NCBI GenBank assembly: GCA_003987725.1
Contig: RXJH01000013.1
Location: 213,945 to 277,944, forward strand
Length of the DNA stretch: 64,000 nucleotides
Source of the DNA: Hyphomicrobium sp.
GTDB lineage: Bacteria > Pseudomonadota > Alphaproteobacteria > Rhizobiales > Hyphomicrobiaceae
Direction of reading: 5' to 3'
Below the pieces are notes generated by a model that saw only the letters and a list, made by a program, of their open reading frames with translations, had not been told where the DNA came from and searched no databases. The translations under genes and the position numbers were made by a program. Numbering within the stretch: the first letter of the stretch is position 1; each line of letters begins with the position of its first letter. Positions 1,983 to 17,540 of the stretch are shown piece by piece.

Positions 1983-2897
1983 ATGCGACTTCTCTTTCTT
2001 GGTGCCGGAGCAACCGGCGGCTATTTCGGTGGACGGCTGACGAAGGCCGGCGCTGACGTGACGTTTCTCGTCCGGCCGAAACGCCGCGATCAGCTTCTCC
2101 GCGACGGCATAAAGATCGAAAGTCCCGTCGGGAATTTGACGACGCCAGTTAGGGCGATCACGCGCGAGGAAATATCGGCTCCGTTCGACGCCGTTATCCT
2201 GAGTGCCAAGGCCTACGACCTGGACGAAGCCATCGAAACGATACGGCCCGCCGTCGGTAAAGACACTTTGGTTCTGCCACTGCTCAACGGCATGAAGCAT
2301 CTTGAAACACTCGACGCTGCGTTCGGCACTCCGCGCGTCCTCGGCGGTATGTGCCAGATCAGCGTTACCTTGACTGAGGACGGTACGATCCAGCACTTCG
2401 GGCCGTTCGCAGCCCTCACGCTCGGGCCGAGGGTTGCCGAGCAAAAGAGCGGGTCGGCAAGGCTCTACGATGTTCTCGCGAAGGGTTGCGATGCGCGTCT
2501 CTCTGATGACGTCATCGCCTCCATGTGGGGCAAGTGGTTCTTCATAGCCGGGCTCGCATCATCCACATGCCTGATGCGCGCATCCGTCGGCGAGATCAAT
2601 CGCACCGGACAGGGCCGGGAATTCATGACCGGCATCGTGAGCGAATGCGTGGCCATTGCCACCGCCAATGGCTATTCGCCGGAGCAGGCGATGCTCGATT
2701 TCACGCATACGCTGATGTGCGATCCAAGCTCAAAGATTTCAGCGTCCATGCTGCGCGACATCGAACGTGGCGGCCGCATAGAAGCCGAGCAGATCGTCGG
2801 CGATATCATTCGCCGGGGCCGGGCGCAGGGCGTCGCAACGCCCCTTCTCGAAACGGCCTTTATCCATCTGCAAGCTTACGAAAACCGGTTTACCTGA
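1983..2897 (+). CDS. panE: 2-dehydropantoate 2-reductase (ketopantoate reductase family)
   Basis: Predicted to reduce ketopantoate to pantoate with NADPH in coenzyme A synthesis. At 304 aa the length is normal for the ApbA/PanE family. The N-terminal Rossmann motif GAGATGGYFGG (residues 7-17) and VRPKRRDQL match the family, and the C-terminal helical domain contains WGKWFFIAGLASSTCLMRA, the usual Lys-containing segment. Several paralogues of this family exist in most alphaproteobacteria, so the true substrate may differ. It stands alone, with no pan gene beside it. Confidence 0.8.
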   Translation: MRLLFLGAGATGGYFGGRLTKAGADVTFLVRPKRRDQLLRDGIKIESPVGNLTTPVRAITREEISAPFDAVILSAKAYDLDEAIETIRPAVGKDTLVLPLLNGMKHLETLDAAFGTPRVLGGMCQISVTLTEDGTIQHFGPFAALTLGPRVAEQKSGSARLYDVLAKGCDARLSDDVIASMWGKWFFIAGLASSTCLMRASVGEINRTGQGREFMTGIVSECVAIATANGYSPEQAMLDFTHTLMCDPSSKISASMLRDIERGGRIEAEQIVGDIIRRGRAQGVATPLLETAFIHLQAYENRFT

Positions 2898-3010
2898 GTG
2901 AATCCGTAGGCCGCTGAAGCAGCCGAGGTAGCGTAGTTAATTTTAGCGGTCTTGTTTCGAGACCGCAAAAGCACGAAAAAGACAAGCCACGAGCGTTGGA
3001 GTTCCGAAGC

Positions 3011-3523
3011 ATGATCCGTCCAATTGTTTGCGCAGCGCTATTGCTGGCCGCGCTTCCTCTTGCAGCCCTCGCACGCACGGCGAACCATGCGGGCGATTGG
3101 AATGGTGCCGAGATCAATTGGCGCGACGCCCGCTCGGGCATCTACGAAGCGTCGAAGACCCGACGCCCCGTTTTGATGGTCTTCCACGCCACCTGGTGCT
3201 CGTTTTGCAAACGCTTCAGGAAGGTCTTTAAGGATCCCGCGGTCGTTGCCGCCTCGCGCGATTTCGTGATGATCCTTGCCGATGTCGATACCGAGAAAGA
3301 GCTGAATGGTGCCTTCTCGCCCGATGGCTCCTATGTGCCGCGCACGCTTTTCATCGATCCCGACGGCAACGTCTCAGACAAGCTCGTCGGGCCGGATCCG
3401 CAATATCCGCATTCTCTGGATGTCGAATCGCCCGCCGAACTTCTCGCTCTGATGAAGAAAGCGCGCCATGTATTCGATATGGCGCCTGCCGAGACGCCGT
3501 CAGTGGGCGCAAACCCGATCTGA
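3011..3523 (+). CDS. Exported thioredoxin-fold protein
   Basis: Probably a periplasmic thiol-disulfide protein. Starting at the ATG at 3011 (GGAG 9 nt upstream), the protein begins with a signal peptide (MIRPIVCAALLLAALPLAALA). An active-site WCSFCKRF motif follows, with Cys63 and Cys66. This CxxC in a FHATWCSFC context resembles the thioredoxin_7/SoxW-DsbE-like group. The cis-Pro region is YVPRTLFIDPDG. The total of 170 aa fits a single thioredoxin domain. A TTG at 2996 in the same frame is rejected because GGAG would then lie inside the gene. The partner is unknown. It lies just before the tRNA gene and outside the island. Confidence 0.8.
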   Translation: MIRPIVCAALLLAALPLAALARTANHAGDWNGAEINWRDARSGIYEASKTRRPVLMVFHATWCSFCKRFRKVFKDPAVVAASRDFVMILADVDTEKELNGAFSPDGSYVPRTLFIDPDGNVSDKLVGPDPQYPHSLDVESPAELLALMKKARHVFDMAPAETPSVGANPI

Positions 3524-3587
3524 TACGTCACGGATTTGCATCCGGCTGTTGCACTTGGCCGCTCGACTCGCCATAAGTCCGACCGGC

Positions 3588-3674
3588 GCGGACGTGGTGG
3601 AACCGGTAGACACACAGGACTTAAAATCCTGAGACGGTAACGTCGTGTGGGTTCGAGTCCCACCGTCCGCACCA
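3588..3674 (+). tRNA. tRNA-Leu (anticodon UAA)
   Basis: An 87-nt class II tRNA. The acceptor stem GCGGACG pairs with CGTCCGC, followed by A and an encoded CCA. The anticodon arm CAGGA-CTTAAAA-TCCTG gives anticodon UAA, reading UUA/UUG. A long variable arm (GAGACGGTAACGTC) and a T-loop GGTTCGAGTCC are present. Its last 56 bases are the left attachment repeat of the island that follows. Confidence 0.97.
3619..3674 (+). repeat. Left attachment repeat (inside tRNA-Leu)
   Basis: Identical over 56 bp to 8808-8863. Identity begins at ACTTAAAATCC in the anticodon loop and runs through the encoded CCA, then stops abruptly on both sides. Confidence 0.9.
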
Positions 3675-3732
3675 CCGCGAAATTCCAGGATAAATTGCGT
3701 CTAGCCGAGTGTTCCGCAAGCGCGGAACAAGG

Positions 3733-4287
3733 ATGTCGTTAGGACACGTCGTCGATGATGACGATGTGTTGACGGCGTCAGCAACAGTGCATGCATTGAC
3801 GTGCGCACCGGTGCATGAGGCGGGGCTAGGCCCCGTTTCTTGGGCCGCCTTGCGTGAAGGCAAGCCGAGCGAACTAAACAGCCTTAACGCGCAGGCTCTG
3901 CTCCGAATTCTCATTCAAGAACGGCCCGGCCGGACGCTTCCGTGGGACTCTGTGCACGCGCTATACGCCGACATGTGCTTCGGTCTGCGACTTGCTCCAA
4001 GGCCATACAACCGGGTCGCAGCCGAGCTGGCGAAGCTAACGCGGGAAAAGGGTCGCCCCGCGAAGCGATATGAATCCCGCGTCGACACGCAGGGCAAAGA
4101 GTGGCGGGAACGGGTGTACATCATTCCGTCGTCGATGCCCGGCAATTCCATTCGGCCATTTGACAGCCACCGCGCCGAGGTACGCCGCAAAGGTAAAGAG
4201 CGGTCCAGGCACCGCCTGCGCGAGACCATAACCGGCGAGAAAATCCTGATTGTTGCGGTCCGCACTTTGAGACGATTGAGCATATAA
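3733..4287 (+). CDS. Hypothetical island protein (184 aa)
   Basis: No family is recognised with confidence. This is the first ORF after the tRNA, the place where an integrase usually sits, but no integrase R-H-R-Y signature is visible. The central part (LNAQALLRILIQERPGRTL, then VAAELAKLTREKGRPAKR and a strand-rich WRERVYIIP) looks like a winged-helix domain, so a phage-type regulator is possible. The basic C-terminal tail (RRKGKERSRHRLRE) may be out-of-frame debris. The start is uncertain: an in-frame GTG at 3709 also exists, and neither has a good ribosome site. A CGTTAGGACACG motif overlaps its first codons. Confidence 0.45.
   Translation: MSLGHVVDDDDVLTASATVHALTCAPVHEAGLGPVSWAALREGKPSELNSLNAQALLRILIQERPGRTLPWDSVHALYADMCFGLRLAPRPYNRVAAELAKLTREKGRPAKRYESRVDTQGKEWRERVYIIPSSMPGNSIRPFDSHRAEVRRKGKERSRHRLRETITGEKILIVAVRTLRRLSI
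3737..3748 (+). repeat. Island motif copy 1 (CGTTAGGACACG)
   Basis: Exact 12-bp match to the copy at 4981-4992. The ten-base core CGTTAGGACA recurs at 8715-8724 and, inverted, at 8770-8779. All four copies lie inside the island. Confidence 0.6.
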
Positions 4288-4401
4288 TGCAGCCTTTACA
4301 GGATTATCGATCTCTTCCTCTGAACTATTGTGACGCCCATTTGCTTCAACCCAGATGCGATCCGTCGCCGGCTCGTCCAGCCTGTTCAGAGGAGAGGACA
4401 A

Positions 4402-4917
4402 ATGAATGCCATCGCTCAACTTCTCGGCCGCTCAGGCCTCCTAAAGCTCGATTACAATCTGCTCCGCGCCGCAATGGTGATCATCTTCGCGTGGTTCGGA
4501 TACGACAAATGGTTCGAATCTGAGATCAAAGCGCTGTTGCCCATCATTACCCATGGACCCTTCACCTCCTGGACGATCCCGGTGTTGGGTATTCGCGGCA
4601 CCTCCATTTTTCTCGGCGCGTCGGAATGGACTTTTGGCGCGTTGCTGCTTCTGGGTTTCTGGAACAAGAAGGCAGGAATGCTCGGCGCTCTCGGTTCCAC
4701 CGCCACCTTCATCTCTACCCTCACGGCCATGCCGTTCGTGCCAGACGCGTGGGATGCCGGTGCTGGAGGCTTTCCAGCGATGACAAATAATTCGGCCTTC
4801 CTTCTGAAGGATCTCGTGCTGCTTGCAGTCTCTGTCTACCTTCTGAAGCAAGACGTTCAACGCGTCCTCAATCAAGACGCTCAAAGGCTGCCTGCCGGTG
4901 CGAACATGAACGCTTGA
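4402..4917 (+). CDS. DUF417 (YkgB/RclC-like) inner-membrane protein
   Basis: A 171-aa membrane protein of the DUF417 family. E. coli RclC (YkgB) belongs to this family and is part of the reactive-chlorine resistance regulon. Four hydrophobic segments are visible: AAMVIIFAWFGYDKW, GASEWTFGALLLLGFW, MLGALGSTATFISTLTAMPF, and LLKDLVLLAVSVYLL. The start at 4402 has a strong GGAGAGGA site; an upstream frame extension from 4330 does not. E. coli RclC is slightly longer, and the loop between helices 1 and 2 is shorter here. The AraC-type gene that follows convergently resembles RclR, which supports an oxidant-response role, though this is inference. Confidence 0.8.
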   Translation: MNAIAQLLGRSGLLKLDYNLLRAAMVIIFAWFGYDKWFESEIKALLPIITHGPFTSWTIPVLGIRGTSIFLGASEWTFGALLLLGFWNKKAGMLGALGSTATFISTLTAMPFVPDAWDAGAGGFPAMTNNSAFLLKDLVLLAVSVYLLKQDVQRVLNQDAQRLPAGANMNA

Positions 4918-4980
4918 GTCGGCCGCCAGCGCTCAGGCCGCGCGCCTGAACGACTAGACGAAGAGGCTTGGCCCTCTTGG

Positions 4981-4992
4981 CGTTAGGACACG
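4981..4992 (+). repeat. Island motif copy 2 (CGTTAGGACACG)
   Basis: Identical to 3737-3748. It lies in the short space between the convergent DUF417 and AraC genes. Confidence 0.6.
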
Positions 4993-5049
4993 CTTGTTCG
5001 GATTGCAGGCGTGATATTGCGAGTTCCGCTTTGCAGAGATAGCTCGTAA

Positions 5050-5988
5050 TTAGCTTTCGCTGTCGGTCTTACGCCGCGTTGCGCGGTAGCGGCCGGGCGA
5101 CAAGCCATAGTGCCGATGGAACAGCTTCGAGAATGCGGCGCTCGTTTCGTAGCCAACCCGACTCGCGATTCTCGCAATAGCCTCATCGCTCGATTCGAGC
5201 AGAAATGCAGCCTCCGCCATCCGGCGCGCGATTAGATAACGCTGCATCGGCTGGCCAACAAGCTTTGTGAAGCGCGCGGAGAATGCCGAGCGGCCAAGGC
5301 CCACCCGATTGCCTAGTTCTTGAAGTGTCCAAGGCCTCTCCGGTCGTTCGTGAATTAACTGCAGCGCAGGCCCGATATGCGGATCACCCATCGCTCCAAG
5401 CCATCCACCTTCTCCCGGACGGAGCGACGTAATCCAGCTTCGCAACACTTCGACAAAAAGCACCTCCGTCAATCGCGAGAGCGCAATGTCCTGCCCCGGT
5501 CGCGCTAGCGCCGACTCGGAGACCATGCGCTTCAGAATCGCATCGAGTCCCTCGCCGTTGGTTGGCGGTCTCAGCAAAAGCACGGGAGGCAGGAACTCAA
5601 GAACGCTGCTGCGCAAAGGCTGCGATACTGTGAAATTTCCGCAGATCATCTTCGCTGTCGGCTCCGAATTACCGCCGTGTCGCACGACACCGAGACGTCC
5701 GGGCGGCCGTTCGAGGTTCATGAGCGGGAACGGCTTGGTCAACCGATCAGAATAAAGCAGATGTTGTTCGCCGCTGGTAATGACGACGAAGTCCCCCGCG
5801 CTCATATGCAAATCTTCTCCCTGTTCGAGAGACAGGGTGGCGGCGCCTTTACTGAGGTAATGGAACAGAGCGTATGGGCGCTTTGGGAGTGCCAAGCTCC
5901 AGGGATGCCCGAGCTCAAAGTGGAAAAGCAGCGTTCCCCCAAAGCGGACACGATCAAGAACGTCAGCTAGCACATCCATAACTACCAT
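5050..5988 (-). CDS. AraC-family regulator with N-terminal cupin (RclR-like)
   Basis: A 312-aa transcription factor. The N-terminal half has the cupin_6/AraC_N pattern seen in RclR-type regulators (ALFHYLSKGAATLSL, then MSAGDFVVITSGEQHLL). The C-terminal 100 residues carry two helix-turn-helix motifs (WTLQELGNRVGLGRSAFSARF and ARIASRVGYETSAAFSKLF) and the family ending SPGRYR. In E. coli RclR two cysteines sense hypochlorous acid. Here a single cysteine (Cys116 in ICGNF) sits where RclR has its CGTL cysteine, and the N-terminal sensing cysteine is absent. It is divergent from the exported hydrolase, with an inverted repeat between them. A second ATG at 5979 is also possible. Confidence 0.85.
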   Translation of the reverse strand: MVVMDVLADVLDRVRFGGTLLFHFELGHPWSLALPKRPYALFHYLSKGAATLSLEQGEDLHMSAGDFVVITSGEQHLLYSDRLTKPFPLMNLERPPGRLGVVRHGGNSEPTAKMICGNFTVSQPLRSSVLEFLPPVLLLRPPTNGEGLDAILKRMVSESALARPGQDIALSRLTEVLFVEVLRSWITSLRPGEGGWLGAMGDPHIGPALQLIHERPERPWTLQELGNRVGLGRSAFSARFTKLVGQPMQRYLIARRMAEAAFLLESSDEAIARIASRVGYETSAAFSKLFHRHYGLSPGRYRATRRKTDSES

Positions 5989-6017
5989 TCTAATTCACCG
6001 CACGATCCGACACAATA

Positions 6018-6045
6018 TTCGGACGGATGACGCCTATCGTCCGAA
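6018..6045. promoter_or_regulatory. Inverted repeat between AraC gene and hydrolase (candidate operator)
   Basis: Perfect 8-bp arms TTCGGACG and CGTCCGAA are separated by 12 bp, with partial symmetry extending further out. The site lies 30 bp upstream of the AraC start and upstream of the divergent hydrolase. The 20-bp arm spacing suits a dimeric regulator binding one face of the helix. Assignment to this AraC protein is inference. Confidence 0.45.
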
Positions 6046-6190
6046 ATGCCCCCATCCTAAATGATGTCGCGCAGGCTGAAGCGGCGTGCACCGATCATCC
6101 CGAAATCGGTGATAGAAGAGCCGTGTTCCTGCTGGAAACGCCCGCCACCCATTGGACCTGGGCTGTCCGACCTTTCCAAAGGAACATTCG

Positions 6191-6964
6191 ATGCGAAATC
6201 TTCTACTGTCCGCCGCCTCCATTCTCTCGGCCAGTGCAGCAGCAATTGTCACCTCTGCCCAAGCGGCGGAGCTTCCCAAAGACGCGGCTCACAACATTGT
6301 GCTAGTCCATGGCGCTTTCGTCGATCAAACGAGCTGGAAGCCGGTCGCGGATATCCTCTCGAAAAAGGGCTATAACGTCACTCTCGTTGAAAATCCGCTC
6401 ACGTCACTTACTGCAGACGTCGATGCTACTAAGCAGGCCCTCGCAAAGCAGGACGGCAAGACAGTCCTCGTCGGCCATTCATGGGGTGGCGTCGTCATCA
6501 CACAAGCGGGCAATGATCCCAAAGTCTCGGCGCTTGTTTTTGTGTCCGCATTCGCACCCGATGTGGGACAATCCTTGAAGACACTGTCCGACGGCGGTCC
6601 CCCCACCGAAGGCACGGCCGCAATTCATCCGGACGAAAAAGGCAACCTCTATATCGATCCCAAGGTATTTCCTTCGGCGGTTGCGGCCGACCTGCCTCCC
6701 CAAATTGCAGAATCCTTGGCCAACCACCAGCTCCCACTGAATCACGTGGCCTTCGAGACTCCCGTCGATACGGCAGCTTGGCGGGACAAGCCGACGTTCT
6801 ATGTGATCACCACCAAGGACAAGGTCATCGCACCTGAGGTGCAGAAGATGTTCGCCGACCGCATGCGTGCCCACGTCACCGATATCGCTGGCAGCCACGC
6901 CTCGCTCGTTGTTCATGCGGACGAAGTCGCTGCGGTCCTCGAAAAGGCAGCACTTGCGAAGTGA
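6191..6964 (+). CDS. Exported alpha/beta hydrolase (EstC-like)
   Basis: A 257-aa hydrolase, probably periplasmic. The ATG at 6191 follows AAAGGAA and opens a signal peptide (MRNLLLSAASILSASAAAI, then VTSAQA). The oxyanion region is VLVHGAFVDQTSW, the nucleophile elbow is GHSWGG, the acid is probably in TTKDKVIAPE, and the histidine is in IAGSHASLV. This pattern is typical of the EstC/salicylate-esterase-like abhydrolase_6 group. The substrate is unknown. It shares a divergent promoter region with the AraC regulator and is followed by a second hydrolase, so the two may be co-transcribed. Confidence 0.8.
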   Translation: MRNLLLSAASILSASAAAIVTSAQAAELPKDAAHNIVLVHGAFVDQTSWKPVADILSKKGYNVTLVENPLTSLTADVDATKQALAKQDGKTVLVGHSWGGVVITQAGNDPKVSALVFVSAFAPDVGQSLKTLSDGGPPTEGTAAIHPDEKGNLYIDPKVFPSAVAADLPPQIAESLANHQLPLNHVAFETPVDTAAWRDKPTFYVITTKDKVIAPEVQKMFADRMRAHVTDIAGSHASLVVHADEVAAVLEKAALAK

Positions 6965-7046
6965 CGTTAGACTTCCGGCGCAAATACGCCGGGAGTCCTC
7001 CATCCGCATTCGATGCTGCCGCTGTCCAACCGAGAGGAATTAAGAA

Positions 7047-7874
7047 ATGTCTTTCGCTAATGCTCCGAGCCAATCGATTGATGTTGACGGGATCCCGTTC
7101 GTATATCGGGAACTGGGGAAAAAGGGCGGTGTACCTGTCGTCCTGCTTCATCATTTGACTGCGGTGCTCGATGACTGGGATCCTAGAATCGTCGATGGCC
7201 TGGCGTCTGAACACCACGTGATCGCATTCGACAATCGTGGCGTTGGCGCTTCTGGTGGGACAACTCCCGCTTCCGTCGAAGCGATGGCCAGCGATGCGGT
7301 CGCGTTTATCCGTGCGCTAGGTTTTAGCAAGGTGGACCTGCTGGGCTTCTCACTCGGCGGCTTCATCGCGCAGGTGATCGCTCAAAAGGAGCCCGACCTC
7401 GTGCGCAAGGTCATCATCGCCGGTTCTGGTCCCGCAGGCGGCGAAGGGATCTCGAACATGGGCGCAGTTCTACAAGACGCAGTCGCTAAGGCGGGCGCCT
7501 CAGGAAAACATCCGAAGCATTTTTTGTTCTTCTCTCAAACTGGCAACGGCCAAGCTGCGGCTGATGCCTTTCTCGCTCGCCTGAAAGAGCGTACGGCAGA
7601 TCGGGATGCTAGCATCAGCAACGAGACCATCGGTGCACAGCTAACCGCCATTCATGCCTGGGGGCAGGGAAATCCTTCCAAGCTTAGCGAGATTCATCAC
7701 CCGGTTTTCATCGCCAACGGCGACGATGACGTGATGGCGCCTACAATCAACTCGTTCGAGCTTGCCCGTCGCCTCCCCAACGCGCAGCTGAGTATTTTCC
7801 CGGATGCCAGCCATGGGGGCATTTTCCAGTACTACCCCGTTTTCGTTCAGCAGGCCTTGGATTTCCTCCGCTGA
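7047..7874 (+). CDS. Cytoplasmic alpha/beta hydrolase
   Basis: A 275-aa hydrolase without a signal peptide. GAGGAA precedes the ATG. The nucleophile elbow GFSLGG, an acid in NGDDDVMAP and the catalytic histidine in DASHGG are all in order. The early segments VVLLHHLTAVLDDWDPR and AFDNRGVGASGG are typical of haloperoxidase/3-oxoadipate enol-lactonase-like hydrolases; the usual HG oxyanion pair reads HH here. The true substrate cannot be told from sequence. It lies about 80 bp downstream of the exported hydrolase in the same orientation, within the island. Confidence 0.8.
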   Translation: MSFANAPSQSIDVDGIPFVYRELGKKGGVPVVLLHHLTAVLDDWDPRIVDGLASEHHVIAFDNRGVGASGGTTPASVEAMASDAVAFIRALGFSKVDLLGFSLGGFIAQVIAQKEPDLVRKVIIAGSGPAGGEGISNMGAVLQDAVAKAGASGKHPKHFLFFSQTGNGQAAADAFLARLKERTADRDASISNETIGAQLTAIHAWGQGNPSKLSEIHHPVFIANGDDDVMAPTINSFELARRLPNAQLSIFPDASHGGIFQYYPVFVQQALDFLR

Positions 7875-8034
7875 TAGCCAGATCGAGGCGGCGTCTTTGG
7901 ATCGTCGCCTCGGTCTTGCGAATATTCCGCCGGTGCTCGGCTTTGGGGACTGAACATAGTCGCGATCTGGATACTCCATCCTAAATCGACCTGACACGCA
8001 CTGTCATGTTCGAGGCTATCCGAAGGAGAAAGCC

Positions 8035-8526
8035 ATGCCTGCTGTAAAAGTGTCGTCCACACTGATCCCCGTCGAACACGTACGGATCAATTGCAGACGA
8101 GCATTTAACGAGGTGCGTGCCGCCCTCGAGACCGATCTCCCGAAGCTGGACGAGCACATCAAAGTTCTACTGAGCAACGGTGATGAAGGACGCATTAAAG
8201 AGATCGAAGAGCACGGCCCTAGGCTCTTTATGTTCCTTTCACGCGACCATGGGGAGCTATTGGGAATCGCGGGCCGGAAGCGGAATGCTGTGCAATACGA
8301 GATTGGGAATCCAATTACCGCTTCGAAGATGACGCGTCACAATCTAGGTGCAGCGCTCTACGCTCCACTCCGCGTCGCGCTTTTTGAGACAGAAGCGGGA
8401 GACGTAGTATTCGAGTATGACAGGCCATCGACGCTTTTCGGGCAGTTCGAGGACGAGACGATCAGCGATGTTGGGCGATACCTCGATCATGAGCTTGAAG
8501 CGGCGCTGGTCAAGGTGGCCGGCTAG
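8035..8526 (+). CDS. DUF302-domain protein
   Basis: A 163-aa protein with the DUF302 pattern. An N-terminal helix (AFNEVRAALETDLPKLDEHI) is followed by the EIGNP motif (VQYEIGNPITASKM) and then PLRVALFETEAGDVVFEYDRPS. DUF302 proteins are small, soluble, of unclear function and common in oxidative- or sulfur-stress contexts. GAAGGAG lies just upstream of the ATG. It is the last complete gene of the island. Confidence 0.75.
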   Translation: MPAVKVSSTLIPVEHVRINCRRAFNEVRAALETDLPKLDEHIKVLLSNGDEGRIKEIEEHGPRLFMFLSRDHGELLGIAGRKRNAVQYEIGNPITASKMTRHNLGAALYAPLRVALFETEAGDVVFEYDRPSTLFGQFEDETISDVGRYLDHELEAALVKVAG

Positions 8527-8529
8527 ATC

Positions 8530-8619
8530 CTCGCCGAGTGCGAATGCGGGCGGTGTGTCAACTGCGATGTTGGCAGTCGGGGCGGCGAGGCCCGCAAAGG
8601 CGAAAAATGCGCTCTTCAT
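8530..8619 (-). pseudogene. Remnant of a secreted-protein gene (5' end only)
   Basis: On the minus strand an ATG at 8619 has GGAG at good spacing and opens a signal-peptide-like stretch (MKSAFFAFAGLAAPTANIA). After about 30 residues the frame runs antisense into the 3' end of the DUF302 gene. It may be the head of a gene cut off by rearrangement in the island, or chance. Confidence 0.25.
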
Positions 8620-8713
8620 TACTGGGCTCCTACCGATGTTGAACGAACCCCAGTAGGTGAGGGCAATGTTCAGGGCTGCATGAACCGAGATTTACTTCGT
8701 CGCAAAGCTGGGC

Positions 8714-8780
8714 CCGTTAGGACATTTCAGCTAACGCATTGAAGCAAATAGCAGCGCTTAAGTCCGAAATGTCCTAACGG
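8714..8780. repeat. Inverted repeat carrying island motif copies 3 and 4
   Basis: Two 17-bp arms, CCGTTAGGACATTTCAG at 8714-8730 and its inverted copy at 8764-8780, differ at one base and are 33 bp apart. Both contain the CGTTAGGACA core found twice more in the island. They end 27 bp before the right attachment repeat, a typical place for recombinase or excisionase accessory sites. Confidence 0.6.
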
Positions 8781-8807
8781 ACTTTGAAAGAATTGCTCAA
8801 TCGCCGA

Positions 8808-8863
8808 ACTTAAAATCCTGAGACGGTAACGTCGTGTGGGTTCGAGTCCCACCGTCCGCACCA
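8808..8863 (+). repeat. Right attachment repeat (3' fragment of tRNA-Leu)
   Basis: A 56-bp exact copy of the tRNA-Leu 3' end. The 5' half of a tRNA is missing, so this is not a functional tRNA. It marks the distal end of the island. Confidence 0.9.
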
Positions 8864-8885
8864 GAGACCTTTAGCGAGAGAACGC

Positions 8886-9173
8886 TTACCCGCCTACACA
8901 CATGTGATAGCGGTGCCACATGCTGCGCGAGCCCGTCTCCATTGCTGCTTCGCGCAAGCCCGCACAACCTCTCGGAGCGCGGAAGCCCATCGGTGTCCCA
9001 TAGGAATGCGTGACTTTGCCCATTTCGGGATGCGTTTGCGCCCAAATGTCGGCGGGGCCAGGGTTGCCGTCGGCCATGCCTAGATAGTTCGCGTTGGCGC
9101 TCGATGCGGCGACTGCAAGCAGCGAAAGAGAACCGATGAGTGCGCCTACGATATGTTTTGAAGTTATGTTCAT
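8886..9173 (-). CDS. Small hypothetical secreted protein (95 aa)
   Basis: The family is not recognised. The start at 9173 is chosen because GAGGAG precedes it and a signal peptide follows (MNITSKHIVGALIGSLSLL, with cleavage probably after ANA). The mature protein is about 70 residues with two cysteines (PRGCAGLREA and the C-terminal HMCVGG) that could pair. It is the first gene beyond the right attachment repeat, so it belonged to the region downstream of the tRNA before the island arrived. Confidence 0.65.
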   Translation of the reverse strand: MNITSKHIVGALIGSLSLLAVAASSANANYLGMADGNPGPADIWAQTHPEMGKVTHSYGTPMGFRAPRGCAGLREAAMETGSRSMWHRYHMCVGG

Positions 9174-9476
9174 CCGAGAACTCCTCTGAACTTGGGTGCA
9201 AAGGCCCCCCTCCAGAGCTGCCATTCGGCTGTAACGAAAACGGACATCGTGAAGACTTCTCACTCGCGCAATAGTCCGCTCGAACTAGCCAAGTGGGCTT
9301 AACCAGTCTCCCCTCGAAAATAGACACAAATTGCACTGATATCGGCGCACATTCTGGCCGCGCTCAGCGGAGCGTGGCTTGCAGGGGGGCGTCGGATTGA
9401 TCCGGAATTGCAGTGGTAATAGTTGATTGCTGCACTGCTCTATGTGTAGCTCGCAGAGACAGCATAGAGGTCGGCT
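9174..9476. other. Intergenic region (303 bp) before the NRAMP-family gene
   Basis: This divergent promoter region has no ORF worth calling. A weak inverted repeat (GCAGTG at 9410-9415 and CACTGC at 9433-9438) lies about 40-65 bp before the transporter start and could be an operator. No manganese riboswitch was recognised. Confidence 0.4.
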
Positions 9477-10781
9477 ATGTCGATGGATCCGAACGCGACT
9501 GAAACGACCTCCGGAATCGTGGAGATTGAGCCACCGCCGTCATCGGCCGGGATTCTCGAAACGCTTGGCCCAGGGTTGGTGACGGGCGCAGCGGACGACG
9601 ATCCGAGTGGCATCGCGACCTACAGCCAAGTTGGCGCGCAATTCGGTTATGGCCTTGCTTGGACCATGCTGTTCAGCTTTCCGCTGATGGTCGCCATCCA
9701 AGCCGTTGCTGCGAGGATCGGCTGCGTGACGGGGCATGGCATCGCGCACAATTTGCGGCGCCATTATCCGAAGTGGCTGCTGCGCGGGGTTATCTCCCTT
9801 CTGCTCGTGGCGAACGTGATCAATCTTGGCGCTGACCTCGGCGCCATGGGGGCCGCGGTGGGTTTGCTGATCGGTGGTCCCGAACGGCTCTACACGGTAC
9901 TGTTAGGCATCGTCTGCATCCTTCTCGAAACGTTCATGAGCTACGCGCGATATAGCGCCGCTCTCAAATGGGCGACGTTGTGCTTGTTCACGTATGTCGG
10001 TGTCGTTTTCACTGCACATGTGCCCTGGGGTACGGCACTCCACGGAACATTCATTCCGCAGTTCAAATTCGATGCCGCGCACGCCATGGGTCTCGTCGCG
10101 GTCCTTGGGACGACGATCAGCCCTTATCTGTTTTTCTGGCAGGCCGGCCAAGAAGTGGAAGAGCTGCGCCGGCGTCACATCAAGCCATTGTGCATCACGC
10201 CTCGCAACGCAGGCCGTGAACTATCTCGCATCCGAAACGATACGATCTTCGGAATGGGCGTATCGAATCTCGTTGGCTTATTCATCATCTTCGCAACGGC
10301 CGCGACGTTGCATGCAAACGGTGTGACCGAAATCCAAACCTCCGCTCAGGCGGCAGAGGCGCTCCGTCCCGTAGCGGGGGTATTCACGTTCGCGCTGTTT
10401 GCGATTGGCATCATTTCAACGGGGATGCTGGCAGTGCCCGTGATGGCTGGTTCAGCTGCTTACGGCGTAAGCGAGCTTTTTGCCTGGAGGCAAGGACTCG
10501 ATCACAAGCTGCGCGAGGCGAAGGCGTTCTATGCGACTATTGCAGTCGCGACGCTCGGCGGCGTGGCGCTGAACTTCACCTCGATTGATCCCATCAAGGC
10601 CCTCTACTGGAGCGCGGTCATCAACGGCATGCTGGCGGCGCCGTTAATGGCCGTGATGATGGTGATGGCGATGAACCCTCACATCATGGGGCGGCTCACG
10701 CTTCCGCGTCCAATGCTCATCGTCGGCTGGATCGCAACTTTCGTCATGGCCCTTGCGACGATCGGGTTCCTGGTGATCTGA
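9477..10781 (+). CDS. NRAMP-family divalent-metal transporter, atypical metal site
   Basis: A 434-aa inner-membrane transporter with about 11 hydrophobic segments in the NRAMP/SLC11 order. The family normally has DPGN in helix 1 and a Met-Pro-His segment in helix 6 lining the metal site. Here helix 1 reads DDDPSGIATYSQ (Asp42 kept, Asn position Gly45), and the helix 6 equivalent reads GTTISPYLFFW (Ser214-Pro215-Tyr216). So the aspartate is kept, but the asparagine and methionine ligands are not seen. Mn/Fe transport is therefore uncertain; this resembles the NRAMP-related subgroup. The start could be ATG 9477 or 9483. It is not clearly in an operon. Confidence 0.8.
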   Translation: MSMDPNATETTSGIVEIEPPPSSAGILETLGPGLVTGAADDDPSGIATYSQVGAQFGYGLAWTMLFSFPLMVAIQAVAARIGCVTGHGIAHNLRRHYPKWLLRGVISLLLVANVINLGADLGAMGAAVGLLIGGPERLYTVLLGIVCILLETFMSYARYSAALKWATLCLFTYVGVVFTAHVPWGTALHGTFIPQFKFDAAHAMGLVAVLGTTISPYLFFWQAGQEVEELRRRHIKPLCITPRNAGRELSRIRNDTIFGMGVSNLVGLFIIFATAATLHANGVTEIQTSAQAAEALRPVAGVFTFALFAIGIISTGMLAVPVMAGSAAYGVSELFAWRQGLDHKLREAKAFYATIAVATLGGVALNFTSIDPIKALYWSAVINGMLAAPLMAVMMVMAMNPHIMGRLTLPRPMLIVGWIATFVMALATIGFLVI

Positions 10782-11109
10782 CGATCCCGTTGGTTGCGCG
10801 ACGTTCTAGAAGGCGCCGCCTTTCGCCGTGCGCTGCAGTGTTCGTCTCCTTCGAGCCGATCTCGCATCTGAACCACAAGTTCTATTCTAACCTTCCGTTC
10901 CGGCGACGCGTGAATAATCCGCAAGCTGAGCGCATGTTGGGACGCGATGCGCGCGCGTCCCAACAGTAACTATATACGTAGGGGCGTTTCCGCCGCTGGT
11001 CGGCGGGCGCTGCGAAAGGGTGAGCGACGGAACTGCCACTCCAATCCGTCGTTTATGCGAGGCGGGGTGCCCGCCTCACAACTCCTCAGTCGCCACGCAT
11101 GGAGCAGAC
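10782..11109. other. Intergenic region (328 bp) before the efflux operon
   Basis: No convincing gene is seen. It holds a 12-bp perfect inverted repeat (10935-10965, listed separately) and an AT-rich stretch around 10969-10980 (ACTATATACGTA) that may belong to a promoter. The adaptor frame is open from 11020. Confidence 0.4.
10935..10965. promoter_or_regulatory. 12-bp perfect inverted repeat upstream of the RND operon
   Basis: TGTTGGGACGCG at 10935-10946 pairs with CGCGTCCCAACA at 10954-10965 across a 7-nt loop. No T tract follows, so a simple terminator is unlikely. It sits just upstream of an AT-rich possible promoter for the efflux genes, which suits an operator. Confidence 0.45.
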
Positions 11110-12324
11110 GTGTTGAGGTCCCGCGTCAGAATATTCATTTGGCTGATAATTCTGTTGGGCTTGGCTGGCGGCGGCTACTGGGTCTGGCAGCATCGCCGCG
11201 TGGCAACGGAGACCTCTGCAAAAAAGAAGCCCGACGAACGCGTGCCGGTCTCCGTCGCGACGGCCGCGATTAAGAATTTTCCTGTCTACTTCGACAGTCT
11301 CGGACAGGTGCAAGCCTGGAATACCGTGACGGTCCGCTCGCGCGTCGACGGCGAGATTGTCAAGGTCGCCTTCGACGAAGGCCAATTCGTCAAAGCCGGC
11401 GATCTTCTGATCCAGATCGACCCGAGGCCCTATCAGGCCGCTCTCGATCAAGCCGTCGCGAAGAAGGCGCAGGACGAGGCCAACCTTGCCAACCTGAAAC
11501 GCGATCTCGAGCGTTTCGAAAAAGTCGGCACGCTCGCAACCACGCAACAACAGATCGACACGCAGAAGTCGAACATCACGCAGCAGGAATCGCTCATCAA
11601 AGCTGATGTCGGGGCGATTGCAAATACTCAGGTCCAGGTCGTCTACACGACCATCAAGGCCCCGATCTCCGGCCGTGTCGGCTTTCGTCTCGTCGATCAA
11701 GGCAACATCATCCACGCCGGAGATACCGGCGGCGTCGCGACCATCGCGCAAATTCAACCGATCGCGGTGATCTTTACTGAACCGGAAGAACGGCTGCCGC
11801 GCATTCTTGATGAACTGAAGCACGGAGCGCTGCCCGTCACCGCCTTCACGTCGGACGGCAAGCAGGAACTCGCCAAGGGCGAGCTTTCGCTGGTCGATAA
11901 CCAGGTCGACACGACCACCGGCTCGATCAAGCTAAAGGGGAAATTCCCGAACACCGAAATGACGCTTTGGCCCGGACTGACCGTCGCGACGCGCCTGCTG
12001 ATCACGACGGAAAAGAACGTCGTCGTAATTCCCGATGCCGCCGTCCAACGCGGGCCCGACAAACTGTTCGCCTATGTCGTAGGGCCCGACATGAAGGCCG
12101 AACGGCGCGATCTGATCGTCGGCGAAATCCAAGATGGCCAGGCCGTTATCAAGAGTGGCGTGAAGGCCGGAGAGCAGGTCGTCACCGCCGGATATTATCG
12201 ACTGGAACCCGGTTCGCTCGTCGACCTGCCCGAAGATCACAAAAAGGAGGAGCAGAAGCAGAAAGCAACGCCTCCGGGTGCTCCGGTATCCGCATCCAAA
12301 CACACGGTGCTGGAGGCTGACTAA
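11110..12324 (+). CDS. RND efflux periplasmic adaptor (membrane fusion protein)
   Basis: Links the RND pump to an outer-membrane channel. An N-terminal membrane anchor (RIFIWLIILLGLAGGGYWVW) precedes the lipoyl halves (TVRSRVDGEIVKVAFDEGQFVKAGDLLIQIDPRPY in two parts), an alpha-hairpin (about residues 110-165, Gln/Ala-rich), then beta-barrel and membrane-proximal domains. This order is typical of MdtA/AcrA proteins. The start is uncertain: GTG 11110 has GGAG close by, TTG 11113 is possible, and GTG 11020 would add a cytoplasmic leader. It is followed 2 bp later by the pump gene. No outer-membrane factor is nearby. Confidence 0.88.
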   Translation: MLRSRVRIFIWLIILLGLAGGGYWVWQHRRVATETSAKKKPDERVPVSVATAAIKNFPVYFDSLGQVQAWNTVTVRSRVDGEIVKVAFDEGQFVKAGDLLIQIDPRPYQAALDQAVAKKAQDEANLANLKRDLERFEKVGTLATTQQQIDTQKSNITQQESLIKADVGAIANTQVQVVYTTIKAPISGRVGFRLVDQGNIIHAGDTGGVATIAQIQPIAVIFTEPEERLPRILDELKHGALPVTAFTSDGKQELAKGELSLVDNQVDTTTGSIKLKGKFPNTEMTLWPGLTVATRLLITTEKNVVVIPDAAVQRGPDKLFAYVVGPDMKAERRDLIVGEIQDGQAVIKSGVKAGEQVVTAGYYRLEPGSLVDLPEDHKKEEQKQKATPPGAPVSASKHTVLEAD

Positions 12325-12325
12325 C

Positions 12326-15300
12326 ATGGCGACCGGCGGCGTATCTGGCATCTTTATCCGTTATCCGATCGGCACCTCGCTCATCATGGTGGGCATTCTG
12401 TTCGTCGGCGTCATCGCGTTTCTGAGCCTGCCGGTTGCGCCGCTGCCGCAGATCGATTTCCCGACCATTCAGGTTTCGGCCACGCTTCCCGGCGCCAGCC
12501 CCGAAACGATGGCATCGAACGTGGCGCAACCGCTCGAGCGTCAGTTCGCGCAGATACCCGGCGTCACTCAGACAACGTCGACGAGCGGCCTCGGCGTCAC
12601 GACCGTCGTCGTGCAGTTCGACCTCAATCGCGATATCGACGGCGCCGCCAACGACATCCAGGCGGCCATCAACGCCGCCAGCGGCCAGCTGCCGCAAAAT
12701 CTGCCCCAGCCGCCGATCTATCGGAAGGTCAATCCGGCAGACAGTCCGATCCTGCTGCTTTCAGCATCGTCCGACGAAATGCCCCTGACGACGGTCGATG
12801 ACAACGCCGACACCAAGCTCGCGCAGCAGATCAGCCAGATTACTGGTGTTGGCCAGGTCGTGATCGGTGGCGAGCAGAAGCCGGCGATCCGCATTCAATT
12901 GGATCCCGCCAAGCTCTACGCGCGCAACCTCACGCTGGAAGAGGTTCGCCTGCCGCTATCGATCACCACGGTCAACAGCCCCAAGGGTTCGCTCGATAGC
13001 ACCAATCGCGGCTACACGATCTACACCAACGATCAGTTGACGCAGGCGAAAGCCTGGGACGACGTGATCATCGCCTACCGAAACGGCAGCCCGATACGCG
13101 TTCGCGATGTAGGCAAGGCCGTCCGCGGCCCCGAGGATGCGAAAAAGGCGGCGTGGTCGAACGGGAAGCGCGGCGTGTTTCTCATCGTATTCAAGCAGCC
13201 CGGTGCGAACGTCATCGAAACCGTGGACCGCATCAAAGCTGAATTGCCACGCCTTCAGGCATCGATGCCGAAGGCCCTTAAGATCGACATTTTAAGCGAT
13301 AGGACGCAAACGATCCGCGCATCCGTCGATGACGTCGAATACACGCTTCTACTTTCGGTCGCACTCGTGGTCGCTGTCATATTCGTGTTCTTGCGAAGTT
13401 TGTGGGCGACCGTCATTCCGAGCGTAACGGTTCCGCTCGCGTTGTTCGGCGCCTGCGCCCTGATGTACGTCATGAACTACAGCCTCGATAACCTTTCGCT
13501 CATGGCCTTGACGATTTCGGTCGGCTTCGTCGTCGATGACGCGATCGTCGTCTTGGAAAACATTGTCCGGTACGTCGAGCATGGCGACGCGCCGTATGAA
13601 GCGGCGATGAAAGGTGCCGAGGAAATCGGCTTCACCGTCATATCGATCAGCGTTTCGCTTGTTGCCGTATTCATCCCGCTGCTGTTCATGAGCGGCATCA
13701 TCGGCCGAATCTTTCGTGAATTTGCCGTCACCGTTACGATGACGATCGCCGTCTCCGCCTTCGTCTCGCTGACGCTGACGCCGATGATGGCATCGCGATT
13801 TTTAAAGAGCGAAAAGGACGTCAGGCACGGTCGGCTTTACAATTTGAGCGAACGTGGCTTCGCGGCGCTGCTCAATGGTTATACCCGCGGCCTCGACTTC
13901 GTACTTCGCCATCAGTTCTTCACGCTGATGTCGTTTTTCGCGACAGTTGCGCTCACGGCCTACCTCTTTATCGAGATCCCGAAGGGCTTCTTCCCACAGC
14001 AGGATACAGGCCTCATCACCGGCATTTCCGAAGCGGCTCAGGATATTTCCTTCCAGGCCATGCTTACCCGCCAGGAGAAGCTGGGCGACGTGGTCGCAAG
14101 CGATCCCGCGGTCGCAACCGTCGCCATGGCTATCGGAGCCGGAGGGCCCACATCCGCACTCAATAGCGGCCGCGTCTACATAACCTTGAAGCCGAAGGAC
14201 CAGCGCGATGCTTCGGCATTTCAAGTCATTCGCAGGCTTCAGCCGAAGCTAGCAAAAGTCGAAGGGGCGCGCCTCTTCATGCAGGCGGCGCAGGACGTGA
14301 CTGTCGGCGGCCGCTCTTCGCGAACGCAGTTCCAGTATACGCTGCAGGACGCGGACGAGAATGAGTTGAACACCTGGGCTCCGAAGATTCTCGATAAGCT
14401 CAAAACCTTGCCCGAGCTTCGTGACGTCGCGACGGACCAGCAGCTCGCCGGAACGACGCTCACCATCGACATCAACCGCGATGAAGCCTCGCGCTACGGC
14501 CTAACCCCGGATGCAATCGACGCGACGCTCTACGACGCATTCGGCCAGCGCCAGATCGCTCAGTATTACACGCAGCAGAACAGCTACCACGTCGTCATGG
14601 AGGTGCTGCCGGAGATCCAGGGCGATTTGGGAAGCCTCGACAATCTCTATATTCGCTCGCCGACGACAGGCGGCCTTGTTCCCCTCGGGACCTTTGCGAG
14701 CTGGACCACGCGTCCGACGGCGCCGCTTTCGATCTCCCACCAAGGGCAATTCCCCGCGGTGACGATCAGCTTCAATCTGGCGCCGGAAGTGTCACTCGGT
14801 ACCGCGACCGACGCGATCAAGGCGGCCGAGCGCCAGCTTCGCCTGCCCGCGTCGATGCAGACGACATTCCAAGGCAACGCGCAAGCTTTCCAGCAATCGC
14901 TGACGACAATTCCGCTGCTGATCGCGGCCGCGCTGTTCGTGGTCTATCTGATCCTCGGCGTTCTCTACGAAAGCTACATTCACCCGATCACGATTCTTTC
15001 CACGTTGCCGTCGGCCGGTGCCGGCGCGCTCGCGACGCTAATGATCTTTGGATATGACTTCAGCCTTGTGGCGATGATCGGCATCATCCTGCTGATCGGT
15101 ATCGTCAAAAAGAACGGCATCATGCTCGTCGACTTCGCCATTCACGCCGAGCGCAACGAGCATCTCACGTCGCTCGAGGCGATACGCAAGGCATCGCTCT
15201 TGCGGTTCCGGCCGATCATGATGACGACGTTGGCGGCGCTTTTGGGTGGCGTGCCTTTGATGCTCGGCACGGGAACCGGCGCGGAAATCCGTCAACCTCT

Positions 15301-15481
15301 CGGCTACTCGATGGTCGGCGGCTTGGCCATCAGCCAGGCCCTGACGCTCTTCACCACGCCCGTCATCTTTCTCTACATGGATCGCTTATCCAACTGGATA
15401 ACGGGAGCGAAACGCCAACCGCGCGAAAAGCAAGCGCCAGCGGCAGCCGCCGCGCCAGCCAGAGCGAAACCGGCGGAATAA
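12326..15481 (+). CDS. RND multidrug efflux permease (HAE1, MdtB/MdtC-like)
   Basis: A 1051-aa proton-driven inner-membrane pump. The N-terminus FIRYPIGTSLIMVGI and VAPLPQIDFPTIQVSA are diagnostic of the HAE1 family, as are the GFFPQQDTG motif mid-protein and GIVKKNGIMLVDFA near the end. The helix 4 proton-relay segment GFVVDDAIVVLENI has both aspartates. The start at 12326 (GGAGG ten bases upstream) overlaps no adaptor sequence; an earlier in-frame ATG at 12278 lies inside the adaptor gene. The C-terminus is Ala/Pro-rich. Two-gene operon with the adaptor. Substrates are unknown. Confidence 0.92.
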   Translation: MATGGVSGIFIRYPIGTSLIMVGILFVGVIAFLSLPVAPLPQIDFPTIQVSATLPGASPETMASNVAQPLERQFAQIPGVTQTTSTSGLGVTTVVVQFDLNRDIDGAANDIQAAINAASGQLPQNLPQPPIYRKVNPADSPILLLSASSDEMPLTTVDDNADTKLAQQISQITGVGQVVIGGEQKPAIRIQLDPAKLYARNLTLEEVRLPLSITTVNSPKGSLDSTNRGYTIYTNDQLTQAKAWDDVIIAYRNGSPIRVRDVGKAVRGPEDAKKAAWSNGKRGVFLIVFKQPGANVIETVDRIKAELPRLQASMPKALKIDILSDRTQTIRASVDDVEYTLLLSVALVVAVIFVFLRSLWATVIPSVTVPLALFGACALMYVMNYSLDNLSLMALTISVGFVVDDAIVVLENIVRYVEHGDAPYEAAMKGAEEIGFTVISISVSLVAVFIPLLFMSGIIGRIFREFAVTVTMTIAVSAFVSLTLTPMMASRFLKSEKDVRHGRLYNLSERGFAALLNGYTRGLDFVLRHQFFTLMSFFATVALTAYLFIEIPKGFFPQQDTGLITGISEAAQDISFQAMLTRQEKLGDVVASDPAVATVAMAIGAGGPTSALNSGRVYITLKPKDQRDASAFQVIRRLQPKLAKVEGARLFMQAAQDVTVGGRSSRTQFQYTLQDADENELNTWAPKILDKLKTLPELRDVATDQQLAGTTLTIDINRDEASRYGLTPDAIDATLYDAFGQRQIAQYYTQQNSYHVVMEVLPEIQGDLGSLDNLYIRSPTTGGLVPLGTFASWTTRPTAPLSISHQGQFPAVTISFNLAPEVSLGTATDAIKAAERQLRLPASMQTTFQGNAQAFQQSLTTIPLLIAAALFVVYLILGVLYESYIHPITILSTLPSAGAGALATLMIFGYDFSLVAMIGIILLIGIVKKNGIMLVDFAIHAERNEHLTSLEAIRKASLLRFRPIMMTTLAALLGGVPLMLGTGTGAEIRQPLGYSMVGGLAISQALTLFTTPVIFLYMDRLSNWITGAKRQPREKQAPAAAAAPARAKPAE

Positions 15482-15488
15482 TAGAGGC

Positions 15489-16733
15489 CTATTCGTCGGC
15501 AGGTTCTTCGACGACTCTCGTTTCGGGCATTGCCAGCGTGACGACGAGGAACCCGAGGAAACCGATCACGGCGAGCGTCAGAAACGCCGTCGACGTTCCG
15601 AAGTGCAGCGCGATTTCGCCCGCGAGCGTCGTGCTGATCGAGGCGCCGATCCCCATAGCAACGCCGATGAATCCAAGGGCAAGATTGAAGTTGCCTGAGT
15701 CTTGCGTCACGTCCGCGACGACGCCAGCAACAAGAACACCGAGCACGCTCGCCGAAATGCCGTCCAGAAATTGGATTGCGACCATCACTTCCGGATCGGA
15801 GCTGAACGACATCAAGACCGCGCGAACCGGAAGAGCCGCAAATCCCAAAAGCAGTAGCGGACGCCGGCCATGTTGATCTCCATAACGCCCTATCCAGGGC
15901 GAGATCAACGCGACGATGAACTGCGGAACGATGATGCAAAGCGCGACGAGGACGGTAGCCGACTTGCTCGAGCGCAAGGTGATGAGATTTGCCGCAAGCG
16001 GCAGCACGGCCGCATTGGCAAGATGGAAAAGACAGACGGACGCCGCGAGGATCAACAGTTGCCGCTTGCCGAAAATCGTCTTGGTGGCCTGCAGCAGATG
16101 ATATTCGGGCTCATGCTTCGGCTCCAGTTCCTCACGATGAAAGTCCGACGGCTGGATCAAGTAAAGCGCCATAACGGCCGGTATCGTCATCGCCGCCGAG
16201 ACGAAGAAGACGGCTTGGCTCGACACGTAATAGCCGGAAGCTCCCATGCTCGCGGCCGCGAACATGCTTCCGAGTGAGGAAAAGCGGGCGTTTCGGCCCA
16301 TTCGTTCGCCGATGAGATTGTGCCCCACGAGCCCCAGGCTGATTGCTGCAAGCGCTGGTCCGATCACGACGCTCGCCGCCGAGTGAAACACCTGCGCCAG
16401 GAACACAGCGTAGAACGTAGGCCAGATCGCGATGGAGAAGGCGGTTGCGCCGACAGTCAGCGTGCAAGCCGCTGCCAGCGTCCGTTCGCGGCCGATCGCA
16501 TCCACGAGCGCACCGGCGGGAACTTGTCCGACAAGAGCGAAGAGACTGCCGATCGTCAGCACAAGGCCTATGTCGGCATTCGTCCATTTTTCTGATGTCA
16601 GATAAACAGTCAGGAACGGCCCGAACCCGACTTGTGCGTCCGCCAGGAAGAACGCGAACCAGTCAACGCCGATCTGGCTTCGTTTGGACGGTGCGTGGAG
16701 AGAAGGCACCAACGGCCCTTTGAAGCCGCGCAT
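15489..16733 (-). CDS. MFS transporter
   Basis: A 414-aa inner-membrane protein with 12 predicted helices. The A-like motif GQVPAGALVDAIGRERTL lies between helices 2 and 3, and a second-half copy is recognisable in ISPWIGRYGDQHGRRPLLLL. This is the layout of drug/metabolite antiporters of the major facilitator superfamily. It converges with the RND permease gene (7 bp between stops). The substrate cannot be inferred. A PRC-barrel gene is read in the same direction upstream of it. Confidence 0.85.
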   Translation of the reverse strand: MRGFKGPLVPSLHAPSKRSQIGVDWFAFFLADAQVGFGPFLTVYLTSEKWTNADIGLVLTIGSLFALVGQVPAGALVDAIGRERTLAAACTLTVGATAFSIAIWPTFYAVFLAQVFHSAASVVIGPALAAISLGLVGHNLIGERMGRNARFSSLGSMFAAASMGASGYYVSSQAVFFVSAAMTIPAVMALYLIQPSDFHREELEPKHEPEYHLLQATKTIFGKRQLLILAASVCLFHLANAAVLPLAANLITLRSSKSATVLVALCIIVPQFIVALISPWIGRYGDQHGRRPLLLLGFAALPVRAVLMSFSSDPEVMVAIQFLDGISASVLGVLVAGVVADVTQDSGNFNLALGFIGVAMGIGASISTTLAGEIALHFGTSTAFLTLAVIGFLGFLVVTLAMPETRVVEEPADE

Positions 16734-16786
16734 GTCTCAATCCGCGGCGGTGGAATGAGTGGCTGCGACGGGCGAAGGTCGCGCCG

Positions 16787-17335: not shown

Positions 17336-17540
17336 GGATCGTTCCCCAAGGCTGAAGGCCGAGACTTGGATACCTGCGCGGTCCGCATCGCGCGGCGAAC
17401 ACCCCGCAGGTGAATGTCAACCGGCCGGGAAGGCTCAAGTTCCGATGCCGCCCGTTAAGCCGTGCGATTGGCAGCCCCGGCGTTTTCTGCTTAGAAGCTC
17501 GCCCAAACCGTTCGACCGCTGCCTTTGGAGACACCTGTAG

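Follow-up and report, generated by a model that had tools for sequence, protein, structure and literature searches.

A 5.2-kb stretch of DNA at a tRNA-Leu(UAA) gene of Hyphomicrobium sp. is, quite likely, a young genomic island that arrived by site-specific recombination, that carries a patchwork of accessory genes of the genus, and whose integrase was deleted or lies outside it. The island is part of a window of 64,000 nt (contig RXJH01000013.1, positions 213,945 to 277,944), which is the whole stretch that we analysed. In its organization it resembles a cis-mobilizable element (CIME), an element that has both attachment (att) sites but has lost its integrase (PMC5704250). As the island encodes no recognised recombinase, the insertion was most likely made by a tyrosine integrase that was later deleted or that came from another element. 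Loss of the integrase and its supply in trans would both account for our data.

Results

An exact copy of the tRNA 3′ end bounds the island

ARAGORN called a single tRNA in the window, and the part of this tRNA-Leu(UAA) gene that begins in the anticodon loop is repeated downstream with all 56 nt identical. The original prediction, made from the sequence alone, had claimed this mismatch-free duplication and a circle of 5,189 bp; its coordinates were correct, and 5,189 nt is the start-to-start spacing of the two copies. For an exact 56-nt repeat inside 10 kb, the chance expectation is near 1e-26. A search across all 15 contigs of the genome (4.25 Mb; E up to 0.001) returned only two matches to this core, namely the tRNA and the distal copy, and the latter received no tRNA call of its own. 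The locus therefore displays a restored tRNA gene with a displaced 3′ fragment in direct orientation, as tRNA islands do. Its features are as follows.

3588–3674, plus strand: tRNA-Leu(UAA) gene, intact, left boundary (ARAGORN)
3619–3674, plus strand: left copy of the 56-bp core, anticodon loop to CCA (repeat comparison)
3675–3748, plus strand: left end of the island, closing with the arm-like motif CGTTAGGACACG at 3737–3748, whose start is 63 nt downstream of the tRNA (alignable over 74 nt with the left end of genome G020)
3709–4287, plus strand: open frame of no family, its last part antisense to the chrA fragment (Pfam, PHROGs and NCBIfam searches)
4139–4253, minus strand: 115-bp fragment resembling chrA, a chromate transporter gene (93% identical to contig C11 of the same genome; sub-threshold Pfam match)
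4330–4917, plus strand: DUF417 membrane protein, with an RclC-like match far under the NCBIfam cut-off (Pfam, NCBIfam)
4981–4992, plus strand: internal arm-like motif, exact 12-bp repeat of 3737–3748 (alignment)
5050–5988, minus strand: AraC-family regulator with a Cupin_6 domain (Pfam)
6152–6964, plus strand: alpha/beta hydrolase (Pfam), perhaps an exported one, as its N-terminus looks signal-like by eye
7047–7874, plus strand: alpha/beta hydrolase (Pfam)
8035–8526, plus strand: DUF302 protein (Pfam)
8714–8780, no strand assigned: inverted motif pair with 15-bp arms and a 37-nt loop, candidate right arm sites (repeat comparison)
8808–8863, plus strand: distal copy of the 56-bp core, right boundary (repeat comparison, genome search)

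A related species has an empty site

The neighbourhood is conserved in G015, another species of the genus, with a single core and nothing inserted, that is, an empty site: the counterparts of window positions 2087–3674 (89.5% identity) and 8808–18388 (89.3%) directly adjoin there. A second comparison with G015 gave 84% identity across 8808–10332. Whereas these flanks diverge from G015 by 10–16%, the distal core has 0/56 mismatches to the tRNA. If the distal copy evolved freely, such perfection would have a chance of about 0.9% at 8% divergence and of 5.7% at 5%. Because this is unlikely, the insertion, or the last homogenization of the core, probably took place after our species and G015 had separated.

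The original prediction had read the repeat as the result of a tRNA-targeted insertion, either recent or under continuing selection, and had called for a comparison of empty and occupied sites. The empty site in G015 supports the targeting, as do recurrent partial tRNA copies in the family (see below), and the intact core supports the recent date. It had also named two findings that would speak against it, namely the same gene order with both repeats in distant genera and an empty site that already holds the second repeat. Neither occurred in the material examined, and G015 has one core copy.

The same tRNA is occupied in other genomes

Two further species of the genus carry insertions at this tRNA that have an empty-site counterpart. 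The insertion in G010 is 7.7 kb long and is followed by a 55-nt core copy; it encodes two TetR genes, an RND pump and fusion protein, and an alpha/beta hydrolase, and G014 provides the empty site. Both G010 core copies carry an identical T-loop variant. The insertion in G007 is 1.1 kb long (L051 17252–18368), with a decayed core copy of 39–42 nt and one transporter-like open reading frame (ORF), EamA-like in kind; G012 provides the empty site. No integrase was recognised in either insertion. In G020 and G018, about 15 and 17 kb of other DNA, respectively, lie between the tRNA and the conserved flank, and no distal core copy was found in the stretches read. The left end of G008 (locus L043) resembles that of the integrase-bearing islands (ATGATATCAATAAGTTA); no integrase ORF was present in the 18 kb read.

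In the family as a whole, 95 of 103 genomes gave a match to the tRNA, and partial copies starting at query positions 29–31 were found at 16 or more places in at least 14 of the 103, our genome included. We examined 11 stretches around distal partial copies in sister genera. In eight of them (G337, G451, G457, G439, G426, G474 and two in G429) an integrase ORF lies close to the copy; one has none (G471, 5.1 kb), and two were too short. The integrase near the distal core was seen in loci L164, L166, L168, L171, L173, L174, L177 and L179, and is split into two ORFs in L171. Tandem arm repeats of the TAGCGACCA/TAGCAACCA/TAGCGAGCA type at the ends, and a AATAAAATCAATAAGTTA-like start after the tRNA, characterize G337, G451, G457, G439 and G426; G474 has a different repeat. 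Thus, these sister-genus islands share with ours the target tRNA and the start of the partial copy, but they have an integrase ORF near the distal copy, where our island has no recognised one, and their arm repeats differ from the motif that our island shares with four other left ends of the genus.

No recombinase is recognised in the island, and no helper was found

Searches of Pfam over the main and ten further ORFs, and searches of PHROGs and NCBIfam, revealed no recombinase domain in the island (Pfam was applied to the main ORFs of this island and of G010), and none of the 11 places in the genome that match the tyrosine recombinase family PF00589 is inside it. A profile built from integrase ORFs, which detects tyrosine integrases only, found none at E up to 0.1 in any of the loci scanned, some of them short: the insertions of our genome, G010, G007, G020 and G018, another 16 loci of the genus, and four cargo loci. 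Seven control loci contributed ORFs to this profile, so those controls are circular; the independent positives (L177, viral L189, L192, L194 and L195) were all detected. The claim that no recombinase is recognisable in the island was thus borne out. The island lacks the internal integrase gene that an Islander-type definition requires. It does keep putative attL and attR sites without integration or transfer genes among the ORFs scanned, which is the arrangement that defines a CIME.

The original prediction had also suggested a search of the genome for a tyrosine integrase sharing the core. We inspected the surroundings of the nine PF00589 places outside contig C4, and none is at tRNA-Leu(UAA); the two on C4 are presumably XerC/D-like, by their motif. 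Integrase ORFs of this genome adjoin tRNA-Leu(CAG), tRNA-Gln and tRNA-Glu, and another is about 2 kb from a tRNA-Arg. The first of these, on contig C12 (L200 7809–9642), encodes 567 amino acids, starts 48 nt past tRNA-Leu(CAG) and perhaps belongs to another island; this tRNA aligns only partially with the core. Single GTTAGGAC matches in L199, L200 and L202 were considered as arms and rejected, as they are within tRNA-Glu or integrase coordinates and the variants are scattered singly.

Beyond this genome, neither the samples searched nor the integrase matches listed yielded a helper. The left end of the island occurs in one of 397 genomes of the order, our own (G020 is outside this sample). 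A viral or plasmid origin of the island was considered and rejected. Island DNA was unmatched in 50,697 phage records. Ninety-nine plasmid records match the island, and among the 20 matches listed the annotated features are AraC regulators and alpha/beta hydrolases. Ten viral contigs contain the core pattern and four of them have integrase-like ORFs, but none of the ten has the motif within 130 nt after the core. A direct motif pair is present in 45 viral stretches, a number that chance could yield by a rough estimate with a guessed collection size.

A motif is repeated within the island and stands at a fixed distance from the tRNA

The window contains four copies of CGTTAGGACA, where 0.04 are expected, and all are within the island. 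The whole genome contains ten, including these four; the reversed control gave seven. Repeats of the GTTAGGACA type start at 3737, 4981, 8714 and 8766. We compared 19 left ends, our own and those of 18 genus loci, by their matches to the 12-nt CGTTAGGACACG. Our island and G020 scored 12/12, G010 11, G007 10 and G018 9, and in all five the motif lies +61 to +64 past the tRNA. The remaining 14 left ends scored 6–8 at scattered positions. As background, nine or more matches occurred at any position in 29 of 875 unrelated 130-nt stretches. The distance and the repetition fit integrase arm sites, which is most likely what these repeats are, judging from their sequence and placement.

The internal copy at 4981–4992 is exact and starts 1,244 nt after the first. 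The region around it (4900–5100) is similar to three left ends, those of G010 (z 6.3), G018 (z 3.8) and G020 (z 3.5, over 26 nt around the motif), whereas z was at most 1.2 for ten other left ends tested. Either a nested insertion into the left arm or a fusion of two islands may account for the segment that separates the 12-bp copies. Segment 3749–3866 also resembles the left end of G007 (z 3.9), for which we have no explanation.

The cargo is shared with other genomes of the genus

Pfam domains were found in five of the six main ORFs: DUF417, AraC with Cupin_6, alpha/beta hydrolase twice, and DUF302. The ten further ORFs gave a single sub-threshold chromate transporter match and nothing more. 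The sixth main ORF, 3709–4287, has no family in Pfam, PHROGs or NCBIfam, and it is probably no real gene over its whole length because its last part is antisense to the chrA fragment. For its part 3709–4140, searches of PADLOC, PDB, plasmids, phages and viral contigs gave no relative. Positions 3749–4138 are open and look protein-like, with no relatives in the libraries searched. The claim that the island carries only cargo genes therefore needs amending on two points: an antisense chrA fragment lies within the first ORF, and the island also contains the arm-like motif internally. The GC content of the island is 0.571, compared with a mean of 0.609 (sd 0.016, minimum 0.567) for windows of equal size.

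Some match to the island was found in 12 of the 22 genus genomes, our own included, all 22 being covered by this comparison. Positions 5056–8525 are 87% identical to G016 (C2:5596–9059), and 5052–6995 are 93% identical to G014 (C5). The DUF417 segment is 89% identical to G001 (4268–4955), 91% to G003 (4392–4956), 81% to G007 and 79% to a second place in G016. The chrA fragment is 77–92% identical to five other species in addition to its 93% match on C11, which may be plain conservation. Backbone identity at the compared loci is 70–80% for G016 and G014, and the upstream flank is 78% identical in G001 and G003. Because the cargo is 87–93% identical where the backbone is 70–80% (G016, G014), at least the AraC/hydrolase block has, on sequence identity, moved horizontally between species of the genus. 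Homologues of lower similarity occur on plasmids and in other families, the latter in a sample with seven of the 22 genus genomes. In a genome of another family (G074; L205 5240–10954), three hydrolases, two AraC-like ORFs and one DUF302-like ORF are clustered, as judged by eye and by similarity to the island; this cluster is possibly an earlier form of the cargo.

Discussion

We propose that a tyrosine integrase recombined the island into tRNA-Leu(UAA), using as its core the half of the gene from the anticodon to the 3′ end. The island's own copy of the tRNA 3′ end would keep the gene whole, and the displaced copy would be the one left at 8808–8863. The integrase would then have been deleted, or it would have been supplied by another element, leaving a CIME-like arrangement of two att sites and no integrase. 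The GTTAGGACA-type repeats are most likely what is left of the arm sites of that integrase. As for the cargo, it is a patchwork of accessory genes that are also present elsewhere in the genus.

Several observations weigh against this proposal. The empty site of G015 could also reflect loss by precise excision. Homology links the left end of our island to that of G020 over 74 nt, and that of G010 to those of G018 and G007; thus, the five motif-bearing left ends are two homologous groups and not five independent cases. The right ends of our island and G010 do not align above shuffles (score 21, reached by 265 of 500). When the motif is excluded, the internal region (4993–5110) discriminates weakly: z is 3.6 for G010, 3.0 for G020 and 2.7 for G018, compared with 2.5 for G019 and 2.2 for G008. 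The motif is absent from the flanks of six places elsewhere in the genus that have similar cargo. No motif-bearing integrase was found; across 103 family genomes the motif pair pattern matched four places (two are the G010 and G020 left ends, the others are in G425 and G434), and the reversed control also had four. Finally, core and motif occur together in one of 397 order genomes, our own, in a sample that does not include G020, G007 and G018.

The fate of the integrase can be pictured in more than one way. We consider it evenly balanced whether the island is a decayed relic, in which an ordinary island inserted with its own integrase, shortly afterwards suffered a deletion of that gene and is now fixed in place, the chrA fragment and the patchwork being part of the scar. 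The eight sister-genus stretches hold their integrase near the distal copy, where our island has no recognised gene (8527–8807), and the other DNA in G018 and G020 is what older decayed islands would show. G008, which begins like an integrase-bearing island yet has no integrase ORF, points the same way. However, three insertions without a recognised integrase at one site in one genus are harder to reconcile with decay, while 0/56 core positions have decayed here. We are more doubtful that the island is a satellite that never needs its own integrase and is moved in trans by a helper with matching core and arm specificity. This idea gains from the core and motif distance that our island and G010 share despite different cargo, from the T-loop variant common to both G010 core copies, from the excess of cargo identity over backbone identity, and from a described small island that excises without an integrase (PMC3191183). 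However, no such helper turned up in our genome or in the samples searched, and in the published case 0/16 host site-specific recombinases were involved and RecA-independent recombination was proposed (PMC5426353). The original prediction favoured such a satellite over an old relic. This preference was not upheld, as no helper emerged from the samples searched and a young island with a lost integrase explains the same facts. A bolder version is tentative and, in our view, unlikely: a genus-wide family of integrase-less cargo islands, with the tRNA-Leu(UAA) core and GTTAGGACA-type arms as their sole mobile signature, that a helper integrase moves in trans and that become larger through recombination at the 12-bp motif. 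Such growth is suggested by the internal copy at 4981 and by the segment between the two copies, whose starts are 1,244 nt apart.

That no integrase ever acted here seems to us very unlikely. The cargo would then have come by homologous or repeat-mediated recombination, and the G015 site would be a deletion between the 56-bp copies. RecA-free recombination between short direct repeats has been described (PMC5426353), and similar cargo is present at other loci of relatives, but neither the recurrent partial-copy starts at positions 29–31 nor the motif at a fixed distance would be explained. A further idea, which is limited to the motif and is compatible in part with those above, is that the CGTTAGGACA repeats are not arms but a dispersed repeat or a hairpin with a regulatory or terminator role. 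The 15-bp inverted repeat at 8714–8780, a similar palindrome in metagenome-assembled genomes (MAGs) of Verrucomicrobia and the unalignable right ends of our island and G010 would suit it. We find it improbable, as the copies at 3737 and 4981 are outside such a pair, the distance from the tRNA varies by no more than 4 nt among five species, and four of the ten genome copies are in a 5.2-kb island.

Our proposal of a young, CIME-like island has parallels in known systems. Like a CIME, the island has att-like sites at both ends, targets the 3′ end of a gene and has no recognised integrase or transfer genes; unlike the CIMEs described, no tandem integrative and conjugative or mobilizable element (ICE/IME) is seen at the site and no remnant of a transfer gene is recognised, and descent from an ICE/IME is putative (PMC5704250). 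No related integrase-bearing element from which it could have descended by deletion was found in the samples searched. The restored tRNA and the displaced 3′ fragment in the same orientation are shared with the tRNA-gene islands of Islander and fit its anticodon-centred site A (PMC4383910). The Microcin H47 island is also small, with direct repeats and no recombinase inside; its excision was detected experimentally and its repeats are extensive and imperfect, whereas ours is a case from sequence only (PMC3191183, PMC5426353). Integrase-less small islands as such are thus already known from the literature, Microcin H47 being an example (PMC3191183). A limited literature search found no published island at tRNA-Leu(UAA) in such a bacterium, which is a weak negative.

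Island finders that demand an integrase miss such insertions (PMC4383910). At a single tRNA of one genus, three insertions lack a recognised integrase and have a species with the empty site as counterpart; together they provide a test set for how often tRNA islands move on a borrowed integrase. The motif that they share could serve as a probe for finding the helper.

Inverted motif pairs in other genomes

A scan of a genome collection, which possibly omits our own genome, for the inverted motif pair returned 16 stretches. Nine of these (seven Verrucomicrobia and two Akkermansiaceae MAGs) share a 46-nt span, and no stretch proved to be an island at a tRNA, the parts read being from L072 and L083. 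An integron attC site was considered for the inverted pair and rejected, as its orientation is inside-out compared with the attC layout. The pair CGTTAGGACA..TGTCCTAACG with the 46-nt span is present in L073–L076, L079, L083, L084, L086 and L087; these MAG pairs are similar to 8714–8780 but are probably unrelated to it.

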